Notes under the pieces: generated by a model | Told to the model about the DNA's origin: nothing | What the model saw: only the letters and a program-made list of their open reading frames with translations | Databases searched by the model: none | Origin: Planctomycetota bacterium | GTDB lineage: Bacteria; Planctomycetota; Planctomycetia; Pirellulales; PLA5 | DNA length: 49,429 nt | Direction of reading: 5' to 3' | Assembly (NCBI GenBank): GCA_003576845.1 | Contig: QEVJ01000027.1 | Coordinates: 1-49,429, forward strand | Shown here: piece after piece, positions 8,585 to 40,398 of the stretch | Position numbering within the stretch: the stretch's first letter is position 1 | Layout: every line of letters starts with the position of its first letter | Translations under genes and position numbers: made by a program

Positions 8585-11500
8585 CTACCTGCGAGCGATT
8601 CGCCGCTGGGCGCGAAGCGGCGTGTCGGTCGTGGAACTCGAGTCGCCCGTCAATTCCCCCAGTGCCCGATCGACGTGGGCCGTGTCGAGCCGCAGGCGCG
8701 CGGAGGCGGCTACGCGTCGGCGTGCGGTCGCTTGGAGCGTCTCCTTGCCGAGCGACGCGGGCCCGGATGCACGCCGCGTCGTTCCCGTGATGACGACCGA
8801 AGCCGCCGCGGGCGGAGACGGTGGCGCGCTGCCGCGGCCGAAGTTGCGGGCGAGGATTGCCGCGTCGGCGCCGTTTACGGCTCCGTCGCCGTTGAGATCG
8901 CCCATTTCCGGCGTCGCGCCGCTCGCCGTGCCGAGCGACCGTTGCAGAATTCCAAGGTCGACGAGATCGACCCTCCCGTCGCCGTCGACGTCGCCCTCGA
9001 CGCCGGTTTGATCTTCCGTTCCCGGCGATCCGCCGATTTGACCGCTTGGCCGCCAGGCGGAGCCAACGCTCCACTGGCTCGTTTCGCCGAGCACGTCGAC
9101 GATGACGAGCGAGTATCCGTCGCCATCCGTCGTGGGATGCCAATCGGGTCCGTTGTCGTCGTAAGTAAACGATTGGATGATGGCGTTGTTGCCGTCGACG
9201 ATGGTTAGAGTCTCGCCGGCGTTATCGAGTTGACCGCCGTACGAGCCGGCGACGTTGAGTCCGGCGCCGTAACGGAAGGCGAACGCGGCTTCGTTTTTGA
9301 CGAGCAACAATCGCTCGCCGGGAGCGAGCGTCGCGACGCTCGCCGTCGCGAAGTCGAACTGTACGCCGGCGATCAGCCGAACGCCGGAAAGATCGAGCGT
9401 TTCGGTCGTGCTCGTGTTCTGGAACTCGATGAACTCGAATTCGTCGGCATCATTAAAGCCCGCCGCCAGCTCTTCGGCCGTCTCGTCCGCCGGGTGATAC
9501 ATCAATTCGCTCACCCGCAGGAAATCCTGCAACGGTCGAACGGATATCGTGCTGGTCACGGTGATCGAATCGGTCGCGATTTGATTGCCTTGGAAGTCGA
9601 AGGCTTCGAGCGCGATCGGATTCGGGCCGAAGTCGATCGGCAGCGTCAATTGCCACGTGTTGTTGTTCACCCAAGTCACCGGCAGATTCGTGTCGTCTCC
9701 GTCGAGCCGAATGTTGCGGACGTTCACCCAGCCCGTCCCTTGCAGCGTCACGGTCGGCGCGTTCACCGTGTGGTCCGCGCCGCCGTTGGTCGTGATGGCA
9801 AACGAAACCGGCGGAATCGCCGCGTTGATCTGGCTCAGCGCGCTCGACGCGCGGCTGGAAATGTAGCTGATGAACGACGTGAACGACTCGGAGGGCAGCA
9901 GCGCGTCGTAGTGGTTGATCCACGGCGTCATATACGTCGCGTTGAACGTCGTCGTGACGATGTCCTGGACGTGGCCGTAGTAATGGTGGCCGTTGCCGGG
10001 AATCGACAGCATCTTGTTCAAGTCGCCGTTCGGCGTCAGGCTGCTCGTCGCGCCGGCCGAGAACGAAAAGTCCATGTCGTGCGGGAAGAGCAGCACGCGG
10101 TCGTCTTCCGGCCGGACGTAGACTTCGAGGTTGTGCTGCGCGCCGGTGAAGTAACTGTCGCCGATGCCGGTGAGTATCCCGACGGCGAAGGCCCGCAGCC
10201 ACTGGTCGACGTCGATCACCGAGTTGATCTGGTTGCTGTAACTCGCTCCGGAAAGGGCGAACGTCTTGGCCATGTCGATCAGCCGCGAGTAATCGTCGGC
10301 ATCGCGATTGTTCTTGATCAGGAACGGCCAGCGATAGCGTTCCTTGTCGTCGCCGAGGTTGGTGATACTCACTCCGACGACGCCGTCGGCGTTCGGATAG
10401 GGCAGCTTGGGGCTTTCCGGATTGCCGTCGGTCGTGCCCGCCGGATAGTAAATCAACTCGTACTCGAACAGCGTGCCGTCGCCGCCGTTCTCGAACTGTG
10501 AGTCGAGGAACACGTCGCCGTAGCGGGCCATCATGAGCATGGCGGTGCCCGTATGCGTCGTGCGCGGGGTAATCGCCCGAATGAGGTCGCTGTATTCGTG
10601 CGGAATGTCGCCGGCGCGGGTCACGATGTGCTCGACGATGATCTCCTTCTGGCTGAACTGGTCGCCGGCGCCGCTGCGATCGACCGCCACGTTGTCGTGC
10701 ACGCCGCGGAAGAGCTGATCGGGCTGGAACTCGACGTTGAAGCTGATCCGCACGTCCTGCCGGCGGCCGCGCTCGCTGCCCTTGAGGCGGATGCCGGCGT
10801 CGTAGAACACTTCGCCCTCGTCGTAGATGATCGTCGCGCCGATGCGGTCGTTGCTCAGCGCGTTCGTCGGCGCGTGGAGCAGGTTGGCGTCGGTCGGCGT
10901 CATCACGATTCGGAAGTTGTGCAGGGCCGTCGCGCCGGAGAGCTGCGCCCGGCCGTCTTCGACCTGGTACAATGCCCGCGATTCGCGGCCCAGCGCCGGG
11001 AAGGTCGCGGTCGCGCCGAGTCCGTCGGTCGATTCGACGTAGAACTGCACGACGGCGCCCGCCGCCTGGCCCGGAATCTCGCCGGAAAGGCGGCCGCTTG
11101 CGCCGATCTGCATCGCCACGCTCTGCCACGTGCCGCTATTGACCGAGTACCACAGCACGGCGCTCGCCACGCCGTCGGGATCGGCCGCATCGACCGACAC
11201 ACTGACGGTCTGGCCGGCCGCCGGGACCGTCGGCGAATGCATCAGGCCGGAATGCGTCGGACCGATGTTCGTTTCATAGCGCGAATTTTGCGCGCCCGGC
11301 GTGCCGCCGAGCTGCGGCGCGTCGATGATCGTCGTCTTGGGCAGCCGGTTGAAGTACAGCCGCGTGTTCACCTGCCGGTCGCCGGTGATGTGCTTGACGC
11401 GGTAAGAGATTTCGTACTCGACGCCGTTGGTGATCGTGGCGATCGTCGCCCCGTTCTTGAGGGTCGTTTCGATGTGGTTGAACATGTGCTCGCTGGCGCT

Positions 11501-14500
11501 CGTGGCGACGAGGCGCAGCACTTTGTTCGTCGGGTTGGTCGGATCGGCGACGACGACGCTCTTACCGTGGCTGCCGTGCGTGCCGCCCAAGCGCCACGCC
11601 GCGGGAAGCGCGCCGATCGAGTCGCCTTGGAACGTGCCGTTCTGAATCAACTGGATCGGTGTCGCCGACGACGGGTTCTGCGTCACGCGGATGTCGTCGA
11701 GCAGCACCTCGCCCGCGTCGAGCAGGCCGAGGAGAAACTCCTGCCATTGTCCGTCCGGACCCACGCTGCTGGACGTCGCCACGCCGCGATAGGTTACGGT
11801 CTGCCACGCGGTCTGGTCGCTCTCGTCGCTTGCCGCCCATGCCTGGGCCTGCGCATTATCCGCGTCGGGATCGCGCAGTTCGAGGCTCGAACCGCCGCCG
11901 TCGGCGAATTCGTGCCAGCGGCCGGAATCGAAGAACTCGACCACGTCCGCCGGATTATCGAGCGCGTCGCGCAGCTCCAGCTTCTCGCCGCCGCGTTGGA
12001 TTTCGCCCGCGAACGGACCGAGAATGCGGATGCTTGGATAGTCCGCGGCGAGCGTGACCACGTCGCGGGCGACGACGAGGTACTCGCCCGGAGCAATCGT
12101 CGTTCCCATGGGGAACTCGTAATCGACGCCGTTGATCTCCCACTCGGTCAGGTCGACGGTCGTCTGGCTGCGATTGTACAGCTCGATCCACTGCTGTTCG
12201 TTGTCGCGATACGGCTGGCCGGGGATGAAGGGCGTCAGCTCTTCGCGGAGCAACATTTCCAACCCGAACACCGTGTCGCTGCTCGTGGCGTTGATCTGAT
12301 GCACTTCGACGGAGAGGACATTCGTGCCGACGTTCAGGATCGCGGGATTGAGCGCGATGTACCCGCTGTAGTTGGCGTTGTCGATCGAAGTCGACGCGAA
12401 CGTGCCGCTCGTTACGGCTCCGGCGGGCATCCCGAACCGCGTGGACCCGCCGCCGATGTCCGCCAGCTCGACGCCGTTGAGATAGAAGACGGCGCCGTCG
12501 TCGATGACGTGCCGGAATACCAATTCGGATCCGGCCGGCGCGCCCGCGAACGTGAACTCCTTCTGATAATAGTACGTCGTCACCGCCTGCGAGTAGTCGC
12601 CCCACGTCGTGCGCAACGGTTCCGGCAAGGCGCTGCTTTCGACGCCGATCAACGTCTGCCCGGTCTGCCAGTCGCCGCCGACGGGCTGATTCGTCTGATA
12701 CCACGTCGCGCCGAGATTCGCGCCGGAGCGGTTGAATTTCCACGTGTCGGCAAACGAAACGAGCGACGTGGTCTGATAGGTCGCCGGCATATCCGGCGTG
12801 CCCAGGAGACCGCGCGGATTGTACATGATCTCGTTAATGACGATCTCGTCGTGGAGCGCGAAACTGTTCGCCGCGCCCGGCGTGGGGACGTCCGGCGTGA
12901 GCCAGCGGTCGCCGAAATCGGGATGGCGGCCTTGCAATCGATTCCGCATGAGCACCGCGTCCGCCACCGCGTTGCCGCCGGGACGGAACAGGAACAACTT
13001 GTCGTTGTCGACGACGGGGAAGCCCAGCGTCGCCGCGTCGACGATGATCCTCTCGCCTGGTTGCACGAATTGCGACGGGAAGACGTAGGGGGCCGTCATT
13101 TCGTTCGACGAACGGATCTCGTAACCGCCGACGTCGATCGCTTGCGAATGAACGTTGGTCAGCTCGATCCAGAACGGAGCGAGCGCGGAGGCGACTTCGT
13201 CGAACTTCAGCGAACTCGGCTGCCGCGGGTCGACGGGCACGACGACCGCCCTTAGCGACGCCGCCATCGCCATGTCGTCGCTGTCGAGCGACGCCTGGTG
13301 TACTTCGACGGCCAGCACGTTGCGGCCGGCGACCAGCGCCGACGACGGAATGCTCACGGGCAAACCGGCCGCGGGCGAGCCGATTTCGGTCGACGCCAGC
13401 GTTCCGTAGCCGATCGCACCGGCGGGCATGTTGCGGCGGTAGACCTCGGCGCCGTTGAGGTAGTACACGGCGCCGTCATCGGCGAGCGGCGTCAGTTCCA
13501 AGAGCGAGACTTGTGCGGCGGCCGCGTCGAGATCGAACTCGTGGCGGAAATAGTGCGTCGTCGGGCCGAGGTCGACGATCGTGTTGCCGGTTACGGTCGT
13601 GGCCAGCACGTCCATCCGGAAGGCAAACCCGCCCGCGTTTCCGCTCTCCGCGCTCGTGTTGCGCACGGCCAAGATGATCTCGTTCGTGCCGACGTTCCAG
13701 TTCGTGAACGAGGCGGCGCTGGAATCGAACTTGGTCACGCTCACCGCGCCGTTTTCCTCGATCGTAATCGACGGATAGGGCGACAAGAACGGATCGCCGG
13801 AGAACGTGACTTCCGTGGCGAGCAACTGGCCGTTGAGATAGACCTGCGCCCCGTTGTCGACGGCCATGCGGATATTCGCGCTCACCGCGCCGAACTCGGG
13901 TAACTCGAACGTCGTGCGATAGTAGCGCACGTTGTTCTGGGCGACGATTCCTTGCACGCCCATCGAATTGGCCGCGGTGTTGATCGACGGAACGACGAGC
14001 GGGCCGGTCGCGGTGGGAACGAGCGTGAACGTCGAGGCGGCCGGCGGAGGCGGATTGCCGCTCGGGTCCCAGTTTCCGGCCGGGCCGCCGCTGATCGTCT
14101 CCGTGCTCAGCCGCCACGTGGCCGTGCTCGACCCGACGGTTATCGGCAACGAAACGGAGATCGGATTCGCAGCGCCGGTGGCCAAGGCTTGAATCGACGC
14201 TTGCGGCAGTGCGATGTTCCACATTGCCACGTCGTCGACGTTGCCGACGAAGCCCTCCGTGGTGTTCGTATGCCGCGTGCCGATGTTCATCAGCCCGATC
14301 GGGCTGATTGCTCGAGAAGCCGCGTATACCGGTTGGCCATTGGCATAGATGGTGAGCATCGACCCATTGGCGACGTACGCCATGTGAATCCATTGATTGG
14401 GCGTCGTCGTGAAGGTCGTCTCGGTCCAGCCGTTGGAGTGAAACTTGATGCTCGAATTGCCGCCGGCCGCGGCGTTGTTGCTGACGGCGGTCTCGAACGA

Positions 14501-15589
14501 ATCGTTCGCGCGGCTGGTGATGCGGTTGTGGCCGATGTTGCCGGAACCGGAGTTTCCCGTGCCCGTGGTTTGGCCGGGATCCTTGATCCAATAGGCGAGG
14601 GTGAAGACGCTCGAGTTGAGGCTGGCGTGGGGCGCGATCGCGACGCGGCTCGCGCCGCCGGAAAAACTCATCGACTTTCCGCTGCCGATGGCGGCCGGCA
14701 CGCTCGTGTCGTAGGTCGCGCCGACGATCGTGCCGTCGTTGACGCCGGTCGCGGAATGGTCGTCCACGTTGTCGTCGAAGTTCCAATACGCGACGAGCGA
14801 CGCAGGCGGCGTGGTCGGCGGCGTGCCGATATTGCCGGCCACGATCGGCGCCTCGCCGCTGGACCAGCTTGCATCGTCGAAGTTGCTTTGCGACCAACTC
14901 GTGCCGAGGTCTGTGCCGGTATCGTCGTACCGCCACGTGGCGTTTTGCTGCACCAGCGTTTGCGACTGCGGCGACAGGTCGACGACGGGAAAGTTGGCGG
15001 CGCCGGGCGTTCCGCCGATTTCGAGACTGGCGGACCAGTTGTCGACGTCGCCGCTACCGGCGTTGGGAGTTCGCTTGGCGAGACTGACGCCCGATCCATC
15101 CGCGGCGAGGGGCCAAGGCTGGTCGTCGGAATAGTCGACCTCGTCCATGACGCGGTCGCTGTTGTTGACGAGCGCAAGCGTTTCGCCGCCATTCGAAAGG
15201 TTGCCCACGTAGGGCCCGAGCGCGCCGGCGAAACCGGCGCTCGCCAGCGCAGCGGGGTCGGCGGCGACGACGAGATAGCCGAACCGCGGGATCGTCGTGC
15301 CGGCGGGGAAGCGATAACTAACGCCCCGGTCGAATCCCCAACCGGAGATGTCCATGTCGACGCCCTGCTGGTTGTGCAGTTCGATGAATTCGAGCGATTC
15401 GTCGCTGCCCGCGGGGTTGTACATGATCTCGTTGAGAACGACGGTGCTGTCGAGCACGTAGCGGTTTTCGAGCGGCTCGATCGTTCGCACGCGGCGGCCG
15501 CGATGCGCGTTCTGCGACGCGCGGCGTGCGGCGGCGCGGAGGTAACGATTGCCGTTGCCGAATGAACCCAGCGAGCGTTTGCCAGACAT
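8585..15589 (-). CDS. Giant LTD / LamG / CotH-kinase / dockerin surface protein (paralog of 32530-40398)
   Basis: 2334 residues. ATG 15589 is preceded by GAGGAG at about 10 bases. Domains in order: Arg-rich N-terminus with IEPLENRYVL (37-46, LEPR-XLL type, no classical signal peptide); lamin-tail domain (about 48-200); galactose-binding-like jelly roll beginning about 205 (TWRYDDTGTDLG), interrupted by LamG (about 265-475) and a second jelly roll, resuming near 680; second LTD (about 790-910); jelly roll (about 950-1117); third LTD (about 1130-1250); carbohydrate-binding-like and Ig-like segments (about 1290-1535); CotH kinase-like region (about 1553-1900, with GIRLKGS and LFPHDMDFSF); fourth LTD (about 2017-2190); dockerin type I with two Ca-binding loops (DVDGDGRVD, DLNGDGAVN, about 2197-2247); and a basic C-terminal tail ending RAQRRIARR. 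It probably acts at the cell surface; the CotH region suggests protein phosphorylation, which is inferred. Confidence 0.9.
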   Translation of the reverse strand: MSGKRSLGSFGNGNRYLRAAARRASQNAHRGRRVRTIEPLENRYVLDSTVVLNEIMYNPAGSDESLEFIELHNQQGVDMDISGWGFDRGVSYRFPAGTTIPRFGYLVVAADPAALASAGFAGALGPYVGNLSNGGETLALVNNSDRVMDEVDYSDDQPWPLAADGSGVSLAKRTPNAGSGDVDNWSASLEIGGTPGAANFPVVDLSPQSQTLVQQNATWRYDDTGTDLGTSWSQSNFDDASWSSGEAPIVAGNIGTPPTTPPASLVAYWNFDDNVDDHSATGVNDGTIVGATYDTSVPAAIGSGKSMSFSGGASRVAIAPHASLNSSVFTLAYWIKDPGQTTGTGNSGSGNIGHNRITSRANDSFETAVSNNAAAGGNSSIKFHSNGWTETTFTTTPNQWIHMAYVANGSMLTIYANGQPVYAASRAISPIGLMNIGTRHTNTTEGFVGNVDDVAMWNIALPQASIQALATGAANPISVSLPITVGSSTATWRLSTETISGGPAGNWDPSGNPPPPAASTFTLVPTATGPLVVPSINTAANSMGVQGIVAQNNVRYYRTTFELPEFGAVSANIRMAVDNGAQVYLNGQLLATEVTFSGDPFLSPYPSITIEENGAVSVTKFDSSAASFTNWNVGTNEIILAVRNTSAESGNAGGFAFRMDVLATTVTGNTIVDLGPTTHYFRHEFDLDAAAAQVSLLELTPLADDGAVYYLNGAEVYRRNMPAGAIGYGTLASTEIGSPAAGLPVSIPSSALVAGRNVLAVEVHQASLDSDDMAMAASLRAVVVPVDPRQPSSLKFDEVASALAPFWIELTNVHSQAIDVGGYEIRSSNEMTAPYVFPSQFVQPGERIIVDAATLGFPVVDNDKLFLFRPGGNAVADAVLMRNRLQGRHPDFGDRWLTPDVPTPGAANSFALHDEIVINEIMYNPRGLLGTPDMPATYQTTSLVSFADTWKFNRSGANLGATWYQTNQPVGGDWQTGQTLIGVESSALPEPLRTTWGDYSQAVTTYYYQKEFTFAGAPAGSELVFRHVIDDGAVFYLNGVELADIGGGSTRFGMPAGAVTSGTFASTSIDNANYSGYIALNPAILNVGTNVLSVEVHQINATSSDTVFGLEMLLREELTPFIPGQPYRDNEQQWIELYNRSQTTVDLTEWEINGVDYEFPMGTTIAPGEYLVVARDVVTLAADYPSIRILGPFAGEIQRGGEKLELRDALDNPADVVEFFDSGRWHEFADGGGSSLELRDPDADNAQAQAWAASDESDQTAWQTVTYRGVATSSSVGPDGQWQEFLLGLLDAGEVLLDDIRVTQNPSSATPIQLIQNGTFQGDSIGALPAAWRLGGTHGSHGKSVVVADPTNPTNKVLRLVATSASEHMFNHIETTLKNGATIATITNGVEYEISYRVKHITGDRQVNTRLYFNRLPKTTIIDAPQLGGTPGAQNSRYETNIGPTHSGLMHSPTVPAAGQTVSVSVDAADPDGVASAVLWYSVNSGTWQSVAMQIGASGRLSGEIPGQAAGAVVQFYVESTDGLGATATFPALGRESRALYQVEDGRAQLSGATALHNFRIVMTPTDANLLHAPTNALSNDRIGATIIYDEGEVFYDAGIRLKGSERGRRQDVRISFNVEFQPDQLFRGVHDNVAVDRSGAGDQFSQKEIIVEHIVTRAGDIPHEYSDLIRAITPRTTHTGTAMLMMARYGDVFLDSQFENGGDGTLFEYELIYYPAGTTDGNPESPKLPYPNADGVVGVSITNLGDDKERYRWPFLIKNNRDADDYSRLIDMAKTFALSGASYSNQINSVIDVDQWLRAFAVGILTGIGDSYFTGAQHNLEVYVRPEDDRVLLFPHDMDFSFSAGATSSLTPNGDLNKMLSIPGNGHHYYGHVQDIVTTTFNATYMTPWINHYDALLPSESFTSFISYISSRASSALSQINAAIPPVSFAITTNGGADHTVNAPTVTLQGTGWVNVRNIRLDGDDTNLPVTWVNNNTWQLTLPIDFGPNPIALEAFDFQGNQIATDSITVTSTISVRPLQDFLRVSELMYHPADETAEELAAGFNDADEFEFIEFQNTSTTETLDLSGVRLIAGVQFDFATASVATLAPGERLLLVKNEAAFAFRYGAGLNVAGSYGGQLDNAGETLTIVDGNNAIIQSFTYDDNGPDWHPTTDGDGYSLVIVDVLGETSQWSVGSAWRPSGQIGGSPGTEDQTGVEGDVDGDGRVDLVDLGILQRSLGTASGATPEMGDLNGDGAVNGADAAILARNFGRGSAPPSPPAAASVVITGTTRRASGPASLGKETLQATARRRVAASARLRLDTAHVDRALGELTGDSSSTTDTPLRAQRRIARR

Positions 15590-22970: not shown

Positions 22971-23037
22971 TGCAAGGTCACGAGTCAGAAATCAGCTCTT
23001 GAATTGAAATCGAACGGCAACGATTCGAGTGGGTGCG

Positions 23038-24879
23038 ATGAATTGGGATTCGTTTCGCGATCGCGATGAGACGAGCCCGCCGGGCGACGGTTCGCCGTCG
23101 GGCGAGGAGTTTGTCGAACTGGCGCTGCGGTATCTCGACGGTCTGACGACCGACGGCGAGGCCGTGAGGTTGTGCGAATTGCTCGCCGCCAGTTCCGCTT
23201 GGCGCGAACAGTACGTCGAGTTGTGTGCGACGCGGGCGCTCATGGCCGAGACGGTCTGGTCCGCGCCGCTGCCGATGCGCCCGGCGAACGAGCGGCCGAT
23301 CGACGCGCCGGCGGCGCTGCCCGTCGAAGTTTCGGCCGATGTACCGATCGGCGGCGGAACGTGGTTCGGCCGCGCCTGGGCCGGCGATTTGCCGTCGCTG
23401 CCGTTGCTCGGCCTGGTGTTCCTGGCGTGTGTCGCGGTGGCGACGTTCGCGGTCGATCGCGTGCGACAGGCTTGGAGCGAAGCGGATCGCCAAACGGGTG
23501 AGGCGACGATCGCGGCCGCGCGGCCATCGTTCGCCACCGACTACGTGGCCACGATTGCCCGAACTGCGAATTGCCGCTGGGAACTTGGCGGCGGCTCGAC
23601 CGAAGTCGGGTCGCGGTTGCCGACGAGCGAGATTCACCTGGCGAGCGGCGTGGCGGAGATCGTGTTCGATCAAGGGGCGCGGGTGATTCTGGAAGGCCCG
23701 GCGTATTTCACGCCGCAGTCGGCCCATGCCGGGTTTCTGCGGCGCGGGAAGCTCGTGGCGCACGTGCCGCCGCGGGCTGAGACCTTTGCGATTCAGACGC
23801 CGTCCGGGGTGGTGACGCATCGCGGCGCGGAGTATGGCCTTGCCGTGGACGACGGCGGGGCTACGGACTTGCACGTGTTTTCCGGCGGCGTCGAGGTGGC
23901 TGTGCGGCGCGATTTGCTTTCGCCGGCCGCCGGATTGGCGTACGGCGAAGGGGACGCGGTGCGGATTTCCGCGCGGAGCGACGCTGCGCCGCAGGGGATT
24001 GCGCTCGACGCAGAGGCGTTCGTTCGCCGCGTGCAGCCGGTCAAGCTCGAATTCCCGGCGAGTTTGATCTCCTATTGGAACTTCGACGAGCAGGGCGGAC
24101 CGGCGGGCGATCTGGTCGGCCGCAACGACGGGGCGCTGCAAGGCGTAACGCGGACCAAGGGCCTCGTTGGCCGCGGGGCCATCGCCTTCGAGGACCGTCA
24201 TGGGCAAATGGTCAACGTCGGCGGCGGCGACGGCTCGTTCGACTTCTCGCAAGGCATCACGATCGAGGCGCTCATCGTCTCGCGGTGGGACGGCGTATCG
24301 AATCTCGACGCCGACGGACACAACTACGACGAGATCTTCCGCAAGGACAACGGCCAGCAGTTGATCCTGCTGGGGCTGCAATACGACGGCAACCAGAATC
24401 GCTTTGCCTTTCCGCCGGGCAAGCAGGGGCACGTATTGTCGTTCGGTTTGCACGTCGACGGGCGGTACGAAGAGCTCGATATGCCCCTCGACGGCGAAGA
24501 GGGGCGGCCGTCGCTGGCCGAACTGACCGACGGACGCCCGCACCACGTGGCGGCGACGTACGACGCGGCCTCGGGGGAAAAGGCGGTCTACGTCGACGGC
24601 CGCAAGCGATTTGGCTACCTGTATCCGTCCGGGGCCCCGCTTCGCATGGGCGGGCGTCGGGCCGCGGCGATCGGCAACGCGGCCGATTTGCCCTGGGAGC
24701 CGTTTCATGGGACGATCGATGAAGTGGCGATTTACCGGGCGGCGCTGCCGGCGGAGGAAATCGCCGAGCATTGGTCGCGGGCACAACGCGGGCAGGGTTA
24801 CTTCGAATCGGCCGGGCCCGTAGATCGCGGCGATGCACAGGACGCGGCGCAGGCGGTCGTGAACGGCGATGCGATTTGA
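23038..24879 (+). CDS. FecR-domain and LamG-domain membrane protein, probable sigma-factor regulator
   Basis: 613 residues from ATG 23038; the ribosome site is weak, and a GTG at 23029 is possible. Residues 1-115 are cytoplasmic: an anti-sigma-like helix region with FVELALRYLDGLTTDGEAV and a following WREQYVELCATRALM. One membrane helix lies at about 119-139 (LPSLPLLGLVFLACVAVATF). Outside it are a FecR domain (about 198-312, VILEGPAYFTP and TPSGVVTHRGAEYGL) and a LamG domain (about 341-600, ASLISYWNFDE ... GTIDEVAIYRAALPAEE). FecR proteins carry surface signals to ECF sigma factors, and the sigma gene is directly upstream. The LamG carries the rare signature ELDMPLDGEEGRPSLAEL, shared with downstream secreted proteins. 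Confidence 0.9.
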   Translation: MNWDSFRDRDETSPPGDGSPSGEEFVELALRYLDGLTTDGEAVRLCELLAASSAWREQYVELCATRALMAETVWSAPLPMRPANERPIDAPAALPVEVSADVPIGGGTWFGRAWAGDLPSLPLLGLVFLACVAVATFAVDRVRQAWSEADRQTGEATIAAARPSFATDYVATIARTANCRWELGGGSTEVGSRLPTSEIHLASGVAEIVFDQGARVILEGPAYFTPQSAHAGFLRRGKLVAHVPPRAETFAIQTPSGVVTHRGAEYGLAVDDGGATDLHVFSGGVEVAVRRDLLSPAAGLAYGEGDAVRISARSDAAPQGIALDAEAFVRRVQPVKLEFPASLISYWNFDEQGGPAGDLVGRNDGALQGVTRTKGLVGRGAIAFEDRHGQMVNVGGGDGSFDFSQGITIEALIVSRWDGVSNLDADGHNYDEIFRKDNGQQLILLGLQYDGNQNRFAFPPGKQGHVLSFGLHVDGRYEELDMPLDGEEGRPSLAELTDGRPHHVAATYDAASGEKAVYVDGRKRFGYLYPSGAPLRMGGRRAAAIGNAADLPWEPFHGTIDEVAIYRAALPAEEIAEHWSRAQRGQGYFESAGPVDRGDAQDAAQAVVNGDAI

Positions 24880-30496: not shown

Positions 30497-32314
30497 GTGC
30501 GGTTAGTCGGAATTTTGCCGATTTCACGGATTTTGTGTACAGGCCGGGATCGACGGCGACGTGTTCTCCTTTTTGGCGCTGCCGGGCTTTGCGCCGGCGC
30601 GCTGTCCAGCGCCGCGTCGGCTGCGGGCGTGATGGCGGGCGGTTCGAGCCTCTTCGATACTCCGGACTACACGGACACATTTACCGGCACGGATTCCGGC
30701 GGTATTCCTGGGCGTCCCTATATTGCCGCGGGTTTGCCGGAATATCGGATCGAAAGCAACTACGGCAACCCGAGCACGCACTTCATTCAGCAGCCGGGGA
30801 GCGTGTTCAGCATTGCGTCGGACGCCGGTCCGGGATTCGTGCAGGGGGGCGCTCCGGCGTATCCCACGTCGCTGGGCGCCAACGCGAGCGGCGCGGGGAG
30901 CGACACGGGCTTTACGCAGACGGGCGGCAATAATCTCGGTTACGGGGTCGAGTATTACCTCCGCGACGAGTACGTCGTGCAGGTCGACGCGATCCAAGTC
31001 ACCGACCGCGTGGATATCACGTCGGGAAATATCCCGGCGGGCAGCCACATCTTTGCGGGCAATTCGATCTCGGTGTTCTTCCGCGGCGACGGATCGGGCA
31101 ACGCCTCGGTGTTCAACGGCGCCGTCGACACGCCGATTGCCGGGCAGCCGGGATTTGAGTCGTTCAACACGGGCATCGCGGCGTGGAATGCGGCGGCGAA
31201 CGGCGGACAAAGCCGCTGGTACAACTACGCCGTGCGGTTCGATCGACCCGACAACGAAATCGAACTGTACGTGAACGAAGTTTCGCTGGGCGTGGTCGAC
31301 CTGGATACGTTCGCGGGCGGGATTTACTCGGCCGGCTTCTCGAATCAATTCGTCGGCGTGAGCACAAACACGGGAGACCGGACCTGGACCGACAACTTTC
31401 AGGTCGGCGGCAACGGGCCGACGACGGGATTGCCCCCGCTGCCGCATCCGAATCCGGGCGTGATTCCGAATCTGCCGGCCGGTCTGGTCTCGTTTTGGGA
31501 CTTCGACGAAGCGGCTGGGCCCGTTCCCGGGCGAACGTTGAACTTCGCGTACGATCGGGCCGGCGGCGGCAATCACGGCAGCTTCGTCGGGGCGGCCGAG
31601 CGCTTTCCGGGCTTGATCGGCACGGGGTCGGCACTGTTTCACGATGCGAACGGCGAAGGCGTGTCCGCCGGCGCGGGTGTGGGCAACAACTTCTCGATGA
31701 CCGGCGGGATCACGGTCGAAACGCTGTTCACGACGAACTACGACGGCAGCGATCAGGCCGAGTTCTTCCGCAAGGAAGACGGCGGCAACCGGATTCTGCT
31801 CTCGTTCCAGTCGGATGCGAACACGAACAACGCGTTCGGCCAGTTGATCGGCAGCGACGCCGGTTTCGCGGGGATTTCGCTGGGCTTGAACACCGGCGGA
31901 TACGCCGAGATGGACGTGGCGCTGGATGGCCAGGATGGTCGGCCCTCGCTGGCGCAGATTGCGGACGGTTCGGTGCATTTCCTGGTTGCGACCTACGACG
32001 CTTCGACGGGCGTGAAGGCGATGTACATCGACGGCGTGCTGGTGGGTTCGATCGACGGTCCGGACAACGTGCCGATCGTCAGCGGCGGCGCGGCCGCGGC
32101 GTTCATCGGCAGCACGAACGGCGGCGAGCCGTTCCCGGGCATTCTCGACGAAGTGGCGGTGTGGAACCGGGCGATCTCGCCGGAGGAAGTGCAAGCCCAC
32201 TATGCGAACGTGCTGGCCGGCAACAACTACTTCGTGCCGGAGCCTGGAACGACGACGCTGGCGGTGCTGGGCGCGATGGGACTCGTCGCCCTGCGGCTGC
32301 GGCGGCGCAAGTGA
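30497..32314 (+). CDS. LamG-containing PEP-CTERM exported protein
   Basis: 605 residues from GTG 30497. No suitable ATG precedes the signal peptide, which is RRRRVLLFGAAGLCAGALSS (about 18-43). A beta-rich N-terminal domain (about 55-300, with SVFFRGDGSGNASVFNGAVD) is followed by LamG (about 327-575: AGLVSFWDFDEAAGPVPG ... GILDEVAVWNRAISPEE). The C-terminus VPEPGTTTLAVLGAMGLVAL then RLRRRK is a PEP-CTERM sorting signal. The LamG carries EMDVALDGQDGRPSLAQI, the same subfamily mark as the FecR-LamG protein upstream and the giant protein downstream. A strong terminator follows 73 bases after the stop. Confidence 0.9.
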   Translation: MRLVGILPISRILCTGRDRRRRVLLFGAAGLCAGALSSAASAAGVMAGGSSLFDTPDYTDTFTGTDSGGIPGRPYIAAGLPEYRIESNYGNPSTHFIQQPGSVFSIASDAGPGFVQGGAPAYPTSLGANASGAGSDTGFTQTGGNNLGYGVEYYLRDEYVVQVDAIQVTDRVDITSGNIPAGSHIFAGNSISVFFRGDGSGNASVFNGAVDTPIAGQPGFESFNTGIAAWNAAANGGQSRWYNYAVRFDRPDNEIELYVNEVSLGVVDLDTFAGGIYSAGFSNQFVGVSTNTGDRTWTDNFQVGGNGPTTGLPPLPHPNPGVIPNLPAGLVSFWDFDEAAGPVPGRTLNFAYDRAGGGNHGSFVGAAERFPGLIGTGSALFHDANGEGVSAGAGVGNNFSMTGGITVETLFTTNYDGSDQAEFFRKEDGGNRILLSFQSDANTNNAFGQLIGSDAGFAGISLGLNTGGYAEMDVALDGQDGRPSLAQIADGSVHFLVATYDASTGVKAMYIDGVLVGSIDGPDNVPIVSGGAAAAFIGSTNGGEPFPGILDEVAVWNRAISPEEVQAHYANVLAGNNYFVPEPGTTTLAVLGAMGLVALRLRRRK

Positions 32315-32529: not shown

Positions 32530-35500
32530 ATGAAGCCGCGGCGCAAGCAACGCCATTGGACGCTGGAAACGCTCGAAACCCGGTGCGTGCTCGACAGCAC
32601 GGTGGTGCTGAACGAGATCGCGTACAACCCGCCGGGGAGCGGCGAGTCGCTCGAATGGATCGAGCTTCACAATCAGATGGCCGTCAACGTCGACATCTCG
32701 AAGTGGCAGTTGTCGGACGGCGTTTCGTTTACGTTTCCCGCCGGAACGGTCGTGCCGGGCGGCGGGTATCTCGTGGTTGCCGCGAATCCGGATGCGCTCG
32801 CGACGGCCGGTATTTTCGCAGGCGCGCTGGGTCCGTGGACCGGCGCGCTGGCCAACGGCGGCGAACAGATCGAGCTGCGCAACAACAGCGATCGCGTGAT
32901 GGACGCGGTCGAGTACGGCGACAACGGCGAGTGGTCGCCGGCGGCCGATGGCGGCGGAGTGACGCTGGCGAAGATCGATCCGCTCTCGGCGAGCGGTCCA
33001 GCGGCGAACTGGCGCGTGAGCCGCGAAGTCGGCGGCACACCGGGCGCGGAGAACTTTCCACCGCCGGGCGGAATCGTGCTGCCGGCCGGCGTCGTTTCAT
33101 ATTGGAGCTTCGACGAGGTCGCCGGTCCCGTGCTCGACCGCGGCGATAGTAACCACGGCGCGCTGGCGGCGGGCGCGACGCGAACGGCAGGACTCGTCGG
33201 CAGCGGCGCAGTGACGTTTGCCGATTCGAGCGCGGCCTACGTGAACGTCGGTCCTGGCACCAGCAACAACTTCTCCGTTTCCACGGGCGTGACCGTCGAA
33301 GCGGTGATCGAGTCGAACTGGGACGGCGTGGGGACGGCGACGGTTTTCCGCAAGGGCGAGAACGTCGGCGCGCCGCTGTGGTCGTATTGGTCGTTCGACG
33401 AATCGAACGGCACGCCGGCCAATGCGAACGTGCTCGACGCGATCGGGGGCAATCACGGCACGCTCGCGGGGACGGCGGTTCACACGACGGGCATTCGCGG
33501 CTTGGGGGCCGGGCGATTCAACAACGTGGCGGCCGAAGGCGTGGGGCTGGGGTCCGGGGCGATGAACGCCACGGCGGGCATCACGATCGCCGCGTGGATC
33601 AAGCCGGAGTGGAACGGGGCCACGTTCAACGCCGACACGATTTACTACAAGAACGACACGACAAACCGGATTTCGCTGGAGTTCCAGCGCGATTCGTCGA
33701 ACAGTCTGGCCGATCCGCCGGTGGCCGGCAGCGCGCCGCAGGTGTTGTCGTTCGCGCTCAACACGAGCGGCTCGGTGCGAGAACTCGATATGCCGCTGGG
33801 CGTTAATCTCGCGGCGCTGCCGAACGGGACGGCGAACGCGGGCACGATCTATCTCACGGCGCCCGGCGGCGCGCTGGGACCGAACGACGTCGTGCTGCGG
33901 GACGGGAGCGCGCATCACGTGGCCGCGACTTACGACGTCGCGTCCGGCGAAAAGGCGATCTGGATCGACGGCGTCAAACGGTGGTTCCGGGCGTATGCGG
34001 CGGGCACGGCGATGGCCGTCGGCGGCAGCGCCGGGGCCGCAATCGGCAATTCGCAGCCGGGCCTGTCGCGGGCATTCACCGGCGTGATCGACGAAGTGGC
34101 GGTCTGGGGCGACGCGCTGTCGGCGGCGCAGATCGCGGCGCTCGTTTCCTCGGCGTCGCCGGTGACGATTCCGTCGGGCGGCGTGAACAACAGCCTCGCG
34201 CTCGAGTTCCAGAACGACGGGAACAACGCGGCGGCGAATCCGCCGGTCGCGGCGGGACCCGTGTTGTCGTTCGGGCTCAACGTCGGCGGCGTGTATCAGG
34301 AACTCGACATGCCGCTCGACGGCGTGGGCACGCGGCCGACGCTCGCGGAGCTTCAGGACGGCAATCCGCACCACATCGCGGCCACGTACAACAGCGCGAC
34401 GGGCGCGAAGTCGATCTGGATCGACGGCGTGGAACGGTTCACGGTGAATCTTGCGCCGGGCGCAACGATCAACAGCGCCGGCGACGGGCTGGCGACGATC
34501 GGGAACCGCGGGGCGCTGGGCGATTCGCCGCTGGTCGGGACGATCGACGAAGTGGCGTTCTGGAACAAGGCCCTGCCGAGCACCGAAGTACAACAACACT
34601 CGGCGAGCGTGCTCGCGGGAAGCAACTATTTCGCCGAACTCAACGCCGGCGCCGCGCCGCTGGCATTTAATGAGACCGCGCCGGGCGTGGCGGGCTTTTG
34701 GGCTGAATTGGTCAATTTTGGCTCGTCGCCGGTGCAGCTTGGAGGGCACGTGATCGTCGGGTCGGAGTCGCCGGCACATCGTTACGTGCTGCCGGCGGGT
34801 ACGCTCGCGGCGGGGGCGTTCTTGACGATTAGCGAGGCACAACTCGGCTTTACGCCGGTCGATACGGAGCGGTTGTTTCTGTACAACCCGGCGGAGAATC
34901 TCGTGCTCGACGCGGTGGCGGTCGACGACGAGCTGCGCGGCCGAGAGCCGCAGGCGACCGGACCGTGGTTGTTCCCGGACGTCGCGACGCCGGGTGCGGC
35001 GAACAGTTTTGCGCTCAACGACGGCGTAGTGATCAACGAGATCATGTACCACGCGCAGCCGACGTATGCCCAGGAAGGTCAGCAGCAAACGTCGCAGCCC
35101 ATTTCGCTCGGCGGGACGTGGCAATACGAGCAGTCGGACACGGACCTCGGCGCGACGAATTGGAAGGACGTGGGCTTCACGCCCACCGGTTGGTCGACGG
35201 GTCAGGCGAGCTTCGGCGCGAGCACGGGCGGAGCGAGCTATCAGAGCATCGTCGCGGCCGACGCGCCGCTTGCCTATTGGCGGCTCGGCGACGCGGGGCC
35301 GAGCGTCGCGGATTCGTCTGGCAACGGCCGCAATGGCACGGCCGACGCGGGCGTGTTGTTCGGGCAGACCAGCTTGCTTTCGGACCTGACGAACAACGCG
35401 GTCAACACGGTCGGCACGGCGCGGATTACCGTGCCGGGGTTCGAGAAGTTTCCGGCCGGCTCGACGGGGTACTCGGTCGAATACTGGATCGAGGTGCTCT

Positions 35501-38500
35501 CGCCGCCGACGAGTTTCAGCAATATCGTGGGCGACGGCGAGTCGGGCGGCGATTTCTACTTGATGAACTACCTGACGAGCGGCGGGCAAATCCGACCGCA
35601 CTTCAACGGGGCCGGCACCGTTTCGACCGACAGCAACGCGACGCTGCAAGTCGGCCAGACGTATCACGTCGTGACCACCTGGGATCGCACGACCGGCATC
35701 GGCTCGATTTACATCAACGGCGCGCTCGACAAGGCGATCAGCGTCGGTACGGGCGCCCCGGTCAACTCCAATAACCCAATCTACATTGGCCGCGACAATC
35801 GCGAGCCGGGGAGCAGCTTTCTGCTCGACGAAGTGGCGATCTACAACCGGCCGCTGAACCAAACGGAGGTTTCCGAGCACTTCAACGCGGGCGGCGGCGT
35901 CGCGTTCGCCACGACGCTCGATCTCGGGCCGACGACGTATTACTTCCGCAAGGAGTTCAACTTCGCGGGCAATCCGGCCGCGACCGAGCTGTCGCTCCGC
36001 ACGTATATCGACGACGGCGCGGTGATCTATCTCAACGGGCAGGAGATTCATCGCCAGAACATGCCGGCCGGCGCGATCGGGCACGAGACGTTTGCCGTCA
36101 CGGCCGTCAGTTCGCCGTCGCTGGGAACGACGATCGCCGTTCCCGCGGGAATTCTGCAAAGCGGGACGAACGTGCTGGCCGTTGAAGTGCATCAGGTCGA
36201 CAGCGGCGACAACGACGTGGCGTTCGACGCGCTCTTGACGGCGATGGAGGATATTGCCTCGTCGACGGACTTCATCGAGTCGGACGAGGAGTGGATCGAG
36301 CTTTACAACCGGTCGGCGGCAGAGGTCGATCTGTCAGGTTGGCATATCGAAGACGCGATCAACTACACTTTCCCGGCGGGGACGACGATCGTGCCGGGCG
36401 AATATCTGGTCCTGGCTCGCGATCCGGTCGCGCTGGCGGCGGCACATCCGGGCATTCGGATCGTCGGCGGTTATTCGGGACAACTGTCGAATGGCGGCGA
36501 GCGGATTACGCTCAAGGACGCAAGCAAGAACCCGGCGGACGTGGTGACGTATGCCGACGAGGGGCGCTGGCCGATTCATGCCGACGGCGGCGGTGCGAGC
36601 TTGGAACTGCGCGATCCGCACGCGGACAATTCGCTCGCCGAAGCTTGGGCGGCGAGCGACGAGCGCGGCAAGTCCGACTGGCGAACGTACACGTATCGGG
36701 GCGTGGCGGCGGTTCCGCCGAATTCGCCGAATCCGACGACGTACAACGAGTTCGTGCTCACGCTGCTCGACGCGGGCGAAGTGCTGCTCGACGACATCAG
36801 CGTTCGCGAAAACCCGAACGGGGCGAACACGCAGTTCATCCAGAACGGCTCGTTCCAGGGCGACGCGCTCGGCGCGGCGCCGGCGACGTGGCGGATCGCG
36901 GGCACGCATCGCGGAACGGTGATCGCCGATCCCGATAACGGGGCGAACAAGGTCTTACGGCTCGTGTCGACGGGGCAAGGTGAGCATCTGGCGAATCACG
37001 CCGAGACGACGCTCAAGGCCGGGGCGACGTTCGAGACGGTTTTGCTCGGCACGGAATACGAGATTTCGTTCAAGGCGAAGTGGATCGCCGGTTCGCCGCA
37101 ACTCAACTCGCGGCTGTTCTTCAATCTGCTGCCGAAGACGACGATACTCGACACTCCGGCATCGGGCGGAACGCCGGGCGCGCGGAACTCGACGCTCGCC
37201 GGTGCGACGGAAGCGGCGGCGAACGTCGGGCCGACGTATGCGAATCTGGCGGCGACGCCGGTCGTGCCCGCGGCGAACGAGCCGGTTGTGGTGTCGGTCG
37301 AAGCGGCCGATCCCGACGGCGTGCAGTCGATGACGCTGCGGTACTCGGTCAACGGCGGCGCGCTACAGAGCGTGGCGATGGCGCTCTCCGGCGGCGCGTA
37401 TCGCGGCGCGATTCCGGGTCAAGCGGCCAATGCCGTCGTGCAGTTTTTCGTCGAGGGGCGGGATGCGCTCAATGCGCTCTCGTCGTTTCCCGCGGCGGGG
37501 GCGGCGTCGCGGGCGCTGTACAAGGTCGGCACGACGGCGACTTCGGCGAGCTTGCACAACTTGCAAATCGTCGTCACGGCGGCCGACGCGGCGGTTCTCG
37601 GCGCGTCGACGAACTTGATGAGCAACCAGCCGGTCGGAGCGACGGTCGTATACGAAGGCAAGGCGTACTACGACGTGGGCGTGCGGCTTAAGGGGAGCGA
37701 ACACGGGCGGCCGGACCTTAATCGCCGCGGGTTTTTCCTCGTTTTTCCGCCGGACAACTTGTTCCGCGGCGTACACGGCTCCGTCGGCATCGACCGTTCC
37801 GGCGGTTGGCGCTATGGGCGGCAGAACGGACAGGAAGAGATCGTCATCCACCACTTCATCAACGCGGCCGGCGGCGTGCCCGGCTCGTACAACGATCTCG
37901 TGAACGTCGAAGCGCCGGGCGTGACGACTGGGACGGCGATCTTGCAGATGGGGCGGTTCACCAACACGTTCCTCGATTCTCAGTACGAAAACGGCAGCGA
38001 CGGCACGCGGTGGGAATACGAACTCATCTACACGATGGGCACGAGCGCGGGCGTGGAAAGTCCGAAGGTGGCGGCGGAAGGGCCGTCGGTGTTCGGCACG
38101 CCGATTCGCGACAAGGGCGAAGACAAGGAATCGTATCGCAACAACTTCCTGATCAAAAACAACACGGACCGCGACGATTTCGAGCCGATCGACGTGCTGG
38201 CCGAGGCGTTCGGGCAGCCGGCGGGAAGCGCGGCCTATCACGCGGCGGCGCAGCAGGCGATCGACGTCGACCAGTGGCTGCGGGCGTTTGCGGCCGTGGC
38301 GCTCGCCGCGGTGAGCGACAGCTACTTCAACAACTCGAACGCCCACAACGCGACGTTCTACGAGCGGCCGAGCGACGGCAAGGTGCTGCTCTTCCCGCAG
38401 GACATGGATTTTGCGTTCGTCAACGGAGCGACGAGCTCGCTGGTGGCGAACAGCGATTTGGCGAACCTGCTCACGCTGCCCCAGAACAATCACTTCTATC

Positions 38501-40398
38501 TCGGCCACGTTCAGGACATCGTGACGACGAGCTTCAACGCGGCGTACATGGGGACGTGGGTCAATCACTACAACAGCCTGTTGCCGGGGCAGAACATCAC
38601 GGACCTGACGAGCTTCATCAACACGCGGGCGAACTTCGCGCTATCGCAGATGCCGGCGCAGGTCGCGTTTAGCGTGGCGGCGAATCCGCCCGCGCCGGTG
38701 ACGACGACGCTGGTCGGCGAGTTCGCGGCGGCGACGGCGTTCGTGCCGAGCGGCGACATCGGGACGGCGTGGACCGGCGTGGGATTCGACGACGCGAGCT
38801 GGACGAGCGGCGACACGGGCGTGGGGTACGAGACGAGCCCGGCCGATTATCAGAATCTGCTCGGTCTCAACGTCGGTTCGATGCTCAATACGAACGGTTC
38901 GGCTTATGTCCGCGTGCCGTTCGACTTTTCCGGAAGCGGGGCGGATTTCGACAATCTCAAGCTGCGGATGCGGTACGACGACGGGTTCGTGGCGTACTTG
39001 AACGGGGTGCGCGTCGCGGCGGCGAATGCGCCGGCGACGCTGGCGTGGAACTCGCTGTCTACGCAGTCGCACGACGACGTGAACGCGGTCGTGCGGCAGG
39101 ATTTCGACATCTCGGCGTTCAAGGACCTTCTCGTCGACGGCGAGAACGTGCTCGCGTTCCAGGTGCTCAACCAGGCGCTCAACAGCAGCGACTTGCTGTT
39201 GCTGCCGGAATTGGTCGGCGAGACGATTCCGGACACGGGCGGGGAAGTCGTCGTGCCCGGGCCGACGGCGACGATCGGCGGGCAAGGTTGGGTGAACGTC
39301 CGCGAGATTCGGTTCGCGGGCGATTCCGCGCCGGTGAATACGACGTGGCTTTCGACGACGGCCTGGCAGGCGACGATCCCCGTGCAGCCGGGCACGCACG
39401 ACTACACGTTCGAGGCTTATGACTTCCAGGGGAACTTCATCGGTTCCGACACGATCGCGATTACGAGCACCGAGCCGCAGCCGCTGCTCAACCACCTGCG
39501 CATCGGCGAGCTCATGTATCATCCGGCCGATCCGTCGACGGCCGAGATCGCGGCGGGTTTCAACGACGCCGACGATTTCGAGTTTGTCGAACTGGTCAAC
39601 ACGAGCACGACCGAAACGCTGCAACTCGACGGCGTGACGATTTCGGCGGGCATTTCCTTTACGTTCGGCAATGTGTCGCTGCCGCCGGGCGGGCGCGTGG
39701 TGGTGGTCGAGGACCTGGCGGCGTTTGCCCAGCGGTATGGCGACGCGATTGTGCCCGTCGGGCAATACACGGGGCGGCTCAACAACGCGGGCGAGCAACT
39801 GCGGCTGGCCGATGCGAACGGCAGCACGATTTTGGACTTCGTGTACGACGACACGGGCACCGGCTGGCATCCGACGACGGACGGCCAGGGGTATTCGCTG
39901 GTGATCGTGGACGAGAGCGGGCCGGCTGCGAGTTGGAACGACGGCGCGGCGTGGCGGCCGAGTTTCGCGATCGGCGGCTCGCCGGGGTTGCCGGATGAGC
40001 CTGTGGGTTTGCTGGGCGACTTCGACGGCGACGGGCGGATCGGTCTGGCGGATCTGGCGATCCTGCAAGCGCACTTGGGGACGGCCAGCGGGGCGACGTC
40101 GCTTACGGGCGATATGAACGGCGACGGGGCGGTGAATCGGCTGGACGCGGCGGAGTTTGCGCGGCGGTTTGGGCAGGGCGGGGCGATACCTTCGGCGCCG
40201 GCGGCGGTTGTGGCCCGACAGAGGGCGGTGTCGGCGAACACGGCGCCATCGTTAAACGCCCAGCGGCGGCGGGTCGACCGGCAAGCGGCAGCGGTGGATC
40301 GGGCGATCGACTCGCTTTCGGCGGACTACGCGGGATCGTCGGCGGCCGGGGGATTGAGAAGGGCAATGAGCGCGGGTAAGAGGCGTATTGCAAGATGA
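32530..40398 (+). CDS. Giant LTD / LamG / CotH-kinase / dockerin surface protein (paralog of 8585-15589)
   Basis: 2622 residues from ATG 32530 (gggaccgcc upstream). Order: Arg/Lys-rich N-terminus with LETLETRCVL (12-21), no classical signal peptide; LTD (about 24-180); LamG first half (about 178-282), a whole second LamG inserted (283-553), LamG second half (554-700); LTD-like (about 709-830); jelly roll (from about 854) interrupted by another LamG (about 903-1124), resuming with TTYYFRKEF; LTD (about 1255-1370); binding-like and Ig-like segments (to about 1665); CotH kinase-like region (about 1670-2040; VRLKGSEHGRP, LFPQDMDFAF); inserted jelly roll (about 2057-2236); LTD (about 2320-2490); dockerin type I (DFDGDGRIG, DMNGDGAVN, about 2496-2545); tail ending KRRIAR. 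Extra modules relative to the paralog explain most of its added length. Confidence 0.9.
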   Translation: MKPRRKQRHWTLETLETRCVLDSTVVLNEIAYNPPGSGESLEWIELHNQMAVNVDISKWQLSDGVSFTFPAGTVVPGGGYLVVAANPDALATAGIFAGALGPWTGALANGGEQIELRNNSDRVMDAVEYGDNGEWSPAADGGGVTLAKIDPLSASGPAANWRVSREVGGTPGAENFPPPGGIVLPAGVVSYWSFDEVAGPVLDRGDSNHGALAAGATRTAGLVGSGAVTFADSSAAYVNVGPGTSNNFSVSTGVTVEAVIESNWDGVGTATVFRKGENVGAPLWSYWSFDESNGTPANANVLDAIGGNHGTLAGTAVHTTGIRGLGAGRFNNVAAEGVGLGSGAMNATAGITIAAWIKPEWNGATFNADTIYYKNDTTNRISLEFQRDSSNSLADPPVAGSAPQVLSFALNTSGSVRELDMPLGVNLAALPNGTANAGTIYLTAPGGALGPNDVVLRDGSAHHVAATYDVASGEKAIWIDGVKRWFRAYAAGTAMAVGGSAGAAIGNSQPGLSRAFTGVIDEVAVWGDALSAAQIAALVSSASPVTIPSGGVNNSLALEFQNDGNNAAANPPVAAGPVLSFGLNVGGVYQELDMPLDGVGTRPTLAELQDGNPHHIAATYNSATGAKSIWIDGVERFTVNLAPGATINSAGDGLATIGNRGALGDSPLVGTIDEVAFWNKALPSTEVQQHSASVLAGSNYFAELNAGAAPLAFNETAPGVAGFWAELVNFGSSPVQLGGHVIVGSESPAHRYVLPAGTLAAGAFLTISEAQLGFTPVDTERLFLYNPAENLVLDAVAVDDELRGREPQATGPWLFPDVATPGAANSFALNDGVVINEIMYHAQPTYAQEGQQQTSQPISLGGTWQYEQSDTDLGATNWKDVGFTPTGWSTGQASFGASTGGASYQSIVAADAPLAYWRLGDAGPSVADSSGNGRNGTADAGVLFGQTSLLSDLTNNAVNTVGTARITVPGFEKFPAGSTGYSVEYWIEVLSPPTSFSNIVGDGESGGDFYLMNYLTSGGQIRPHFNGAGTVSTDSNATLQVGQTYHVVTTWDRTTGIGSIYINGALDKAISVGTGAPVNSNNPIYIGRDNREPGSSFLLDEVAIYNRPLNQTEVSEHFNAGGGVAFATTLDLGPTTYYFRKEFNFAGNPAATELSLRTYIDDGAVIYLNGQEIHRQNMPAGAIGHETFAVTAVSSPSLGTTIAVPAGILQSGTNVLAVEVHQVDSGDNDVAFDALLTAMEDIASSTDFIESDEEWIELYNRSAAEVDLSGWHIEDAINYTFPAGTTIVPGEYLVLARDPVALAAAHPGIRIVGGYSGQLSNGGERITLKDASKNPADVVTYADEGRWPIHADGGGASLELRDPHADNSLAEAWAASDERGKSDWRTYTYRGVAAVPPNSPNPTTYNEFVLTLLDAGEVLLDDISVRENPNGANTQFIQNGSFQGDALGAAPATWRIAGTHRGTVIADPDNGANKVLRLVSTGQGEHLANHAETTLKAGATFETVLLGTEYEISFKAKWIAGSPQLNSRLFFNLLPKTTILDTPASGGTPGARNSTLAGATEAAANVGPTYANLAATPVVPAANEPVVVSVEAADPDGVQSMTLRYSVNGGALQSVAMALSGGAYRGAIPGQAANAVVQFFVEGRDALNALSSFPAAGAASRALYKVGTTATSASLHNLQIVVTAADAAVLGASTNLMSNQPVGATVVYEGKAYYDVGVRLKGSEHGRPDLNRRGFFLVFPPDNLFRGVHGSVGIDRSGGWRYGRQNGQEEIVIHHFINAAGGVPGSYNDLVNVEAPGVTTGTAILQMGRFTNTFLDSQYENGSDGTRWEYELIYTMGTSAGVESPKVAAEGPSVFGTPIRDKGEDKESYRNNFLIKNNTDRDDFEPIDVLAEAFGQPAGSAAYHAAAQQAIDVDQWLRAFAAVALAAVSDSYFNNSNAHNATFYERPSDGKVLLFPQDMDFAFVNGATSSLVANSDLANLLTLPQNNHFYLGHVQDIVTTSFNAAYMGTWVNHYNSLLPGQNITDLTSFINTRANFALSQMPAQVAFSVAANPPAPVTTTLVGEFAAATAFVPSGDIGTAWTGVGFDDASWTSGDTGVGYETSPADYQNLLGLNVGSMLNTNGSAYVRVPFDFSGSGADFDNLKLRMRYDDGFVAYLNGVRVAAANAPATLAWNSLSTQSHDDVNAVVRQDFDISAFKDLLVDGENVLAFQVLNQALNSSDLLLLPELVGETIPDTGGEVVVPGPTATIGGQGWVNVREIRFAGDSAPVNTTWLSTTAWQATIPVQPGTHDYTFEAYDFQGNFIGSDTIAITSTEPQPLLNHLRIGELMYHPADPSTAEIAAGFNDADDFEFVELVNTSTTETLQLDGVTISAGISFTFGNVSLPPGGRVVVVEDLAAFAQRYGDAIVPVGQYTGRLNNAGEQLRLADANGSTILDFVYDDTGTGWHPTTDGQGYSLVIVDESGPAASWNDGAAWRPSFAIGGSPGLPDEPVGLLGDFDGDGRIGLADLAILQAHLGTASGATSLTGDMNGDGAVNRLDAAEFARRFGQGGAIPSAPAAVVARQRAVSANTAPSLNAQRRRVDRQAAAVDRAIDSLSADYAGSSAAGGLRRAMSAGKRRIAR

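Follow-up and report, generated by a model that had tools for sequence, protein, structure and literature searches.

Proteins in which one domain interrupts another, in the order A1-B-A2, have been surveyed across ECOD, where 48,551 such insertion events were counted (Schaeffer et al. 2026, PMC13114784). In 65.8% of these events the two domains come from different homologous groups; the other 34.2% are not of this kind, so nesting between related domains is known. Inserts are smaller than their hosts in 77% of the events. In the window analysed here, a planctomycete DNA stretch of 49,429 nucleotides, we found a LamG domain that interrupts another LamG domain. This arrangement resembles the ECOD insertions in that one domain is broken up by a second one, but guest and host are of the same family and, at 259 aa, the guest exceeds the host, which has about 238 aa. 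As in other domain insertions, the joined host is complete, the insert is complete and relatives are uninterrupted at the same place. Insertion of one domain into another is an established process that includes homologous pairs (PMC13114784); the LamG case is a well-supported, conserved and apparently rare instance. A limited literature search returned no description of a LamG within a LamG, and nothing specific on this type of locus. Since proteins of one architecture carry the same domain either nested or uninterrupted, they offer a clean natural test case in which the influence of a same-fold guest on binding and folding is directly measurable.

The family profile of these LamGs matches pentraxins (LamG/concanavalin A-like family), and Laminin_G_3 (PF13385) is matched by the guest, by the C-terminal half of the host and by a further LamG of the same protein, termed LamG3. 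In contrast to the LamG/concanavalin A-like family, the host LamG is discontinuous. PF13385 by itself recovers only C-terminal parts of host and guest, with the cut-off reached on the C-terminal half of the host alone; a full-length LamG match of the host was obtained with our own family profile after joining its halves. The "Planctosome" model of freshwater Planctomycetes (PMC6461901) shares with this locus large secreted LTD proteins and dockerin modules. The model comprises P-domains, thrombospondin repeats and cohesins; LamG and CotH lie outside it.

The interrupted LamG is part of a giant secreted planctomycete protein of 2,622 aa (Table 1), for which the earlier note had given the ORF, residues and sequences correctly, as re-reading confirmed. 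Pfam matches comprise four LTDs, three Laminin_G_3 domains and Dockerin_1, with CotH just below the cut-off; the galactose-binding-like domains were assigned with our own profiles. Preceding the giant gene on the same strand of the window are genes for a sigma-70-family (ECF-like) factor, the FecR-LamG protein, DUF1549/DUF1553 and DUF1501 proteins and a PEP-CTERM-type LamG protein. The LamGs of the giant, FecR and PEP-CTERM proteins form one family.

Table 1. Features of the giant protein and of the LamG proteins encoded before it (positions in the window)
Feature	Position	Strand	Details
FecR-LamG protein	23029..24879	+	Pfam FecR and Laminin_G_3; uninterrupted LamG, a single family-profile match at 5-248
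Neighbouring LamG protein with PEP-CTERM-like tail	30497..32314	+	Pfam Laminin_G_3, PEP-CTERM just below cut-off; uninterrupted LamG, family profile 5-248
Giant protein	32530..40398	+	LTD, LamG1 with nested LamG, LTD, galactose-binding-like domain with nested LamG3, LTD, CotH-like, second galactose-binding-like domain, LTD, dockerin I
Host LamG, N-terminal half (N1)	33085..33363	+	residues 186-278; family profile 5-102, iE 1.7e-19
Guest LamG, complete	33376..34152	+	residues 283-541; family profile 5-242, iE 1.3e-63
Linker, guest back to host	34153..34188	+	about residues 542-553; SASPVTIPSGGV; kept in G001 as SASPVTLPSEGV
Host LamG, C-terminal half (C1)	34189..34620	+	residues 554-697; family profile 104-248, iE 4.5e-55
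Galactose-binding-like host of LamG3, N-terminal piece	35116..35235	+	profile about 1-39
LamG3, second nested LamG of the giant protein	35236..35898	+	missing in L075, in which the domain around it is unbroken
Galactose-binding-like host of LamG3, C-terminal piece	35905..36249	+	profile about 43-157

The order of pieces in the giant protein is N1-[N2-C2]-C1, where N2 and C2 belong to the guest. N1 breaks off after TVFRKGE, and ENVGAP (residues 277-282) links it to the guest, which is inserted at the FRK-(EDGGN)-R loop of the host, in agreement with the loop after FRK named in the earlier note. The family profile rests on 29 related LamGs; those of the FecR and PEP-CTERM proteins were excluded, both from the window and from the sister species. 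The three pieces score well past what chance would give (Table 1) and divide this profile at 102/104. Once the guest is removed, the joined N1 and C1 score 256 bits over positions 5-248, higher than the separate parts added together. Complementary profile pieces and a joined match exceeding their sum identify the host halves as parts of one domain, rather than each being a separate complete domain, and bear out the proposed nesting of one LamG in another. The guest is complete on its own, matching positions 5-242 of the 248 in the profile; its start had been placed correctly at residue 283, but the end moves from 553 to 541, the remaining residues being linker. Over its whole length, the joined host is 49.4% identical to the FecR-LamG, and 45% identical to the LamG of the PEP-CTERM-type neighbour. 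The full-length match anticipated for the FecR-LamG was thus obtained, although it is not gap-free: 14 gap positions occur, mostly in the FecR-specific LDADGHNY stretch and the linker. Alignments in which uninterrupted relatives fell on the guest, or on a combination of N1 and C2, were set aside as evidence. No direct repeats were found flanking both junctions, the strongest repeats reflecting host-guest homology. A complete LamG is lodged in a loop of a second LamG, and the split is real, old and conserved.

About 50 related LamGs show no interruption at the insertion loop; in LamGs of this family from other members of the order and phylum, the N part runs directly on into the C part, typically within about 10 residues at the loop. 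Most informative are proteins with the order LTD-LamG-LTD-LTD and an uninterrupted LamG, encoded at L075 and L094 (both genome G611), L077 (G631) and L081 (G359), as in IFRKEDGANRVLLSFQNDG. Of two further loci, L078 gives an LTD-LamG fragment and L079 starts within the LamG. With the L075 LamG, N1 and C1 each share 59% identity. We class the former four proteins as same-architecture relatives, short of proven orthologues. Among the loci examined, LamG-in-LamG was seen only in the genome of the window (G000) and in its sister species (G001). In L076 (genome G527; also in L133), a protein of similar architecture, the corresponding LamG is split in another, earlier loop by a different segment of 187 aa (L076 694-1254), for which Pfam and PDB searches gave no identification.

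How the nesting arose, and whether both LamGs are intact, can be weighed against several other readings. Pieces of two LamG genes might have been wrongly joined during assembly or binning; both the G000 and G001 assemblies are fragmented, and a contig of G001, the only other genome of the family compared, breaks at the first junction. Yet G001 carries the same nesting and reads through both junctions at 73% identity: it spans two contigs (L010, L011) whose overlap, exactly 141 identical bases in frame, covers the first junction, while the second junction lies inside a single contig. The whole is moreover a single reading frame under purifying selection throughout, with dN/dS values between G000 and G001 of 0.20 for N1, 0.21 for the guest and 0.23 for C1 (0.09-0.18 for the rest of the giant protein). 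The nesting shared with G001, together with purifying selection on all pieces, argues against both artefact and decay, and we give an artefact next to no credence. The same nesting in G001 also implies that the insertion predates the split of the two species. An overlap such as that of L010 and L011 is as expected of an assembly-graph branch with fixed word length. That the host halves are a decaying relic, with only the guest folding, could be read from the conserved loop residues gone around the insertion and from dN/dS values of the nested LamG pieces slightly above those of the LTDs. However, N1 and C1 are under the same constraint as the guest, and of the 63 strongly conserved positions the host keeps 52-53; seven of the 11 that are gone in G000 fall at model positions 97-111, around the insertion. 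We consider a relic improbable. A derivation from three tandem LamGs, cut by two deletions to N1-N2-C2-C1 in the absence of any insertion, finds a precedent in the tandem LamGs of the G000 genome (L108, L110, L111), but it requires two deletions ending at the same profile position, and a lone LamG stands at this place in proteins of matching architecture, which makes it highly improbable.

The guest may also be a copy of its own host, duplicated into itself. Host and guest both have an E at model position 111 that is otherwise not seen in the family, and forcing them into one clade, although worse by 17.4 log units, is not rejected (p-AU 0.0725). On the other hand, the guest contains a segment of about 21 aa (around TIYLTAPGGALGPNDVVL) as in LamGs of genomes G004, G014 and G030, which the host does not have, and it groups with this subtype in trees whether the indel columns are kept or removed (98/81 and 96/92 when removed). 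The GC content gave no sign of foreign DNA. A self-copy appears unlikely, and the guest probably derives from another LamG subtype.

From the general features of the LamG fold, the insertion loop would be a turn between two neighbouring strands, and the ends of a LamG would be close together; a turn and close ends would suit the roles of host and guest, respectively. The losses near the insertion fit a closed host fold in which the turn would be replaced by linkers, and we infer that N1 and C1 still close into one LamG sandwich, with the guest folding independently. Model positions 97 and 111 covary (Fisher p 6e-5), but this was set aside as a sign of N1-C1 pairing, because the rows are related and partly repeated, because T97 is likewise found in LamGs of this architecture that have no interruption, and because shared ancestry could explain it.

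With good confidence, we favour an insertion in frame as the best explanation of the locus: a complete LamG, related to the host but probably of a different subtype, would have entered the FRK-EDGGNR turn before the two known species of the genus separated. N1 and C1 would form one sandwich, with the guest as an autonomously folding domain standing on a surface turn. The likely result would be a secreted protein with a dockerin, in which two LamG binding surfaces are stacked, LamG3 coming in addition. LamGs of the same family in the FecR sensor-like and PEP-CTERM proteins suggest a common ligand class for the locus, which we conjecture to be glycans.

LamG insertion into other domains is common in the G000 genome, and the LamG-in-LamG is an unusual case of this wider local habit. 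LamG3 sits within a galactose-binding-like beta-sandwich: with LamG3 removed, the joined flanks match positions 1-163 of the corresponding profile with 151.6 bits. This profile was built from 40 one-piece copies and tested on sequences from which the LamG had been removed. We could confirm 12 LamG insertions into this sandwich at the loci examined, one of them in the giant protein itself. They use two sites, at about model positions 36-46 and about 103-107. Orthologous insertions in G000 and G001 account for some of them, and G027, which belongs to another family, contributes two of the loci. In a quick tree with many weak, long branches, the LamGs of the first site do not form one group. The sandwich of about 160 aa (DDGAVxYLNGxE...NVLAVEVHQ) is common in such giant proteins and has no Pfam family above the cut-off. 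The giant protein has two copies, at 35116-36249 (split by LamG3) and at 38755-39219 (whole). A second giant LTD/CotH/dockerin protein of the window (minus strand, ORF 8585-15589) has a LamG at 14177-14803, after the first ~38 sandwich positions; the continuation of the sandwich after this LamG is complicated by an extra partial copy.

On contigs of G000 with at least two LamG genes, 17 of the 32 LamGs have their nearest relative in a different gene of the same contig (mean 1.6, maximum 12 in 5,000 shuffles of contig labels). Among five small partner proteins scanned, PEP-CTERM scored above the Pfam cut-off in three and just under it in one, and was not detected in the fifth; both giant partners scanned contain LTD, LamG, CotH and dockerin. 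Tentatively, LamG modules might spread locally from gene to gene within a locus and settle time and again in fixed loops of beta-sandwich hosts, each locus holding a matched set (sensor-like FecR, PEP-CTERM and giant CotH/LTD proteins) tuned to one ligand class; the LamG-in-LamG would be the same process reaching a LamG host. A ligand shared by such a set is our conjecture, and local duplication or gene conversion with no shared function is an equally simple reading. Matched LamG sets would offer a handle on what uncharacterised planctomycete loci recognise. At L110 (contig C21 of G000), the two LamGs of a small PEP-CTERM protein clearly correspond, one to one, to the two that are nested in the giant protein beside it; the same pairing is weaker at L111 (contig C169).
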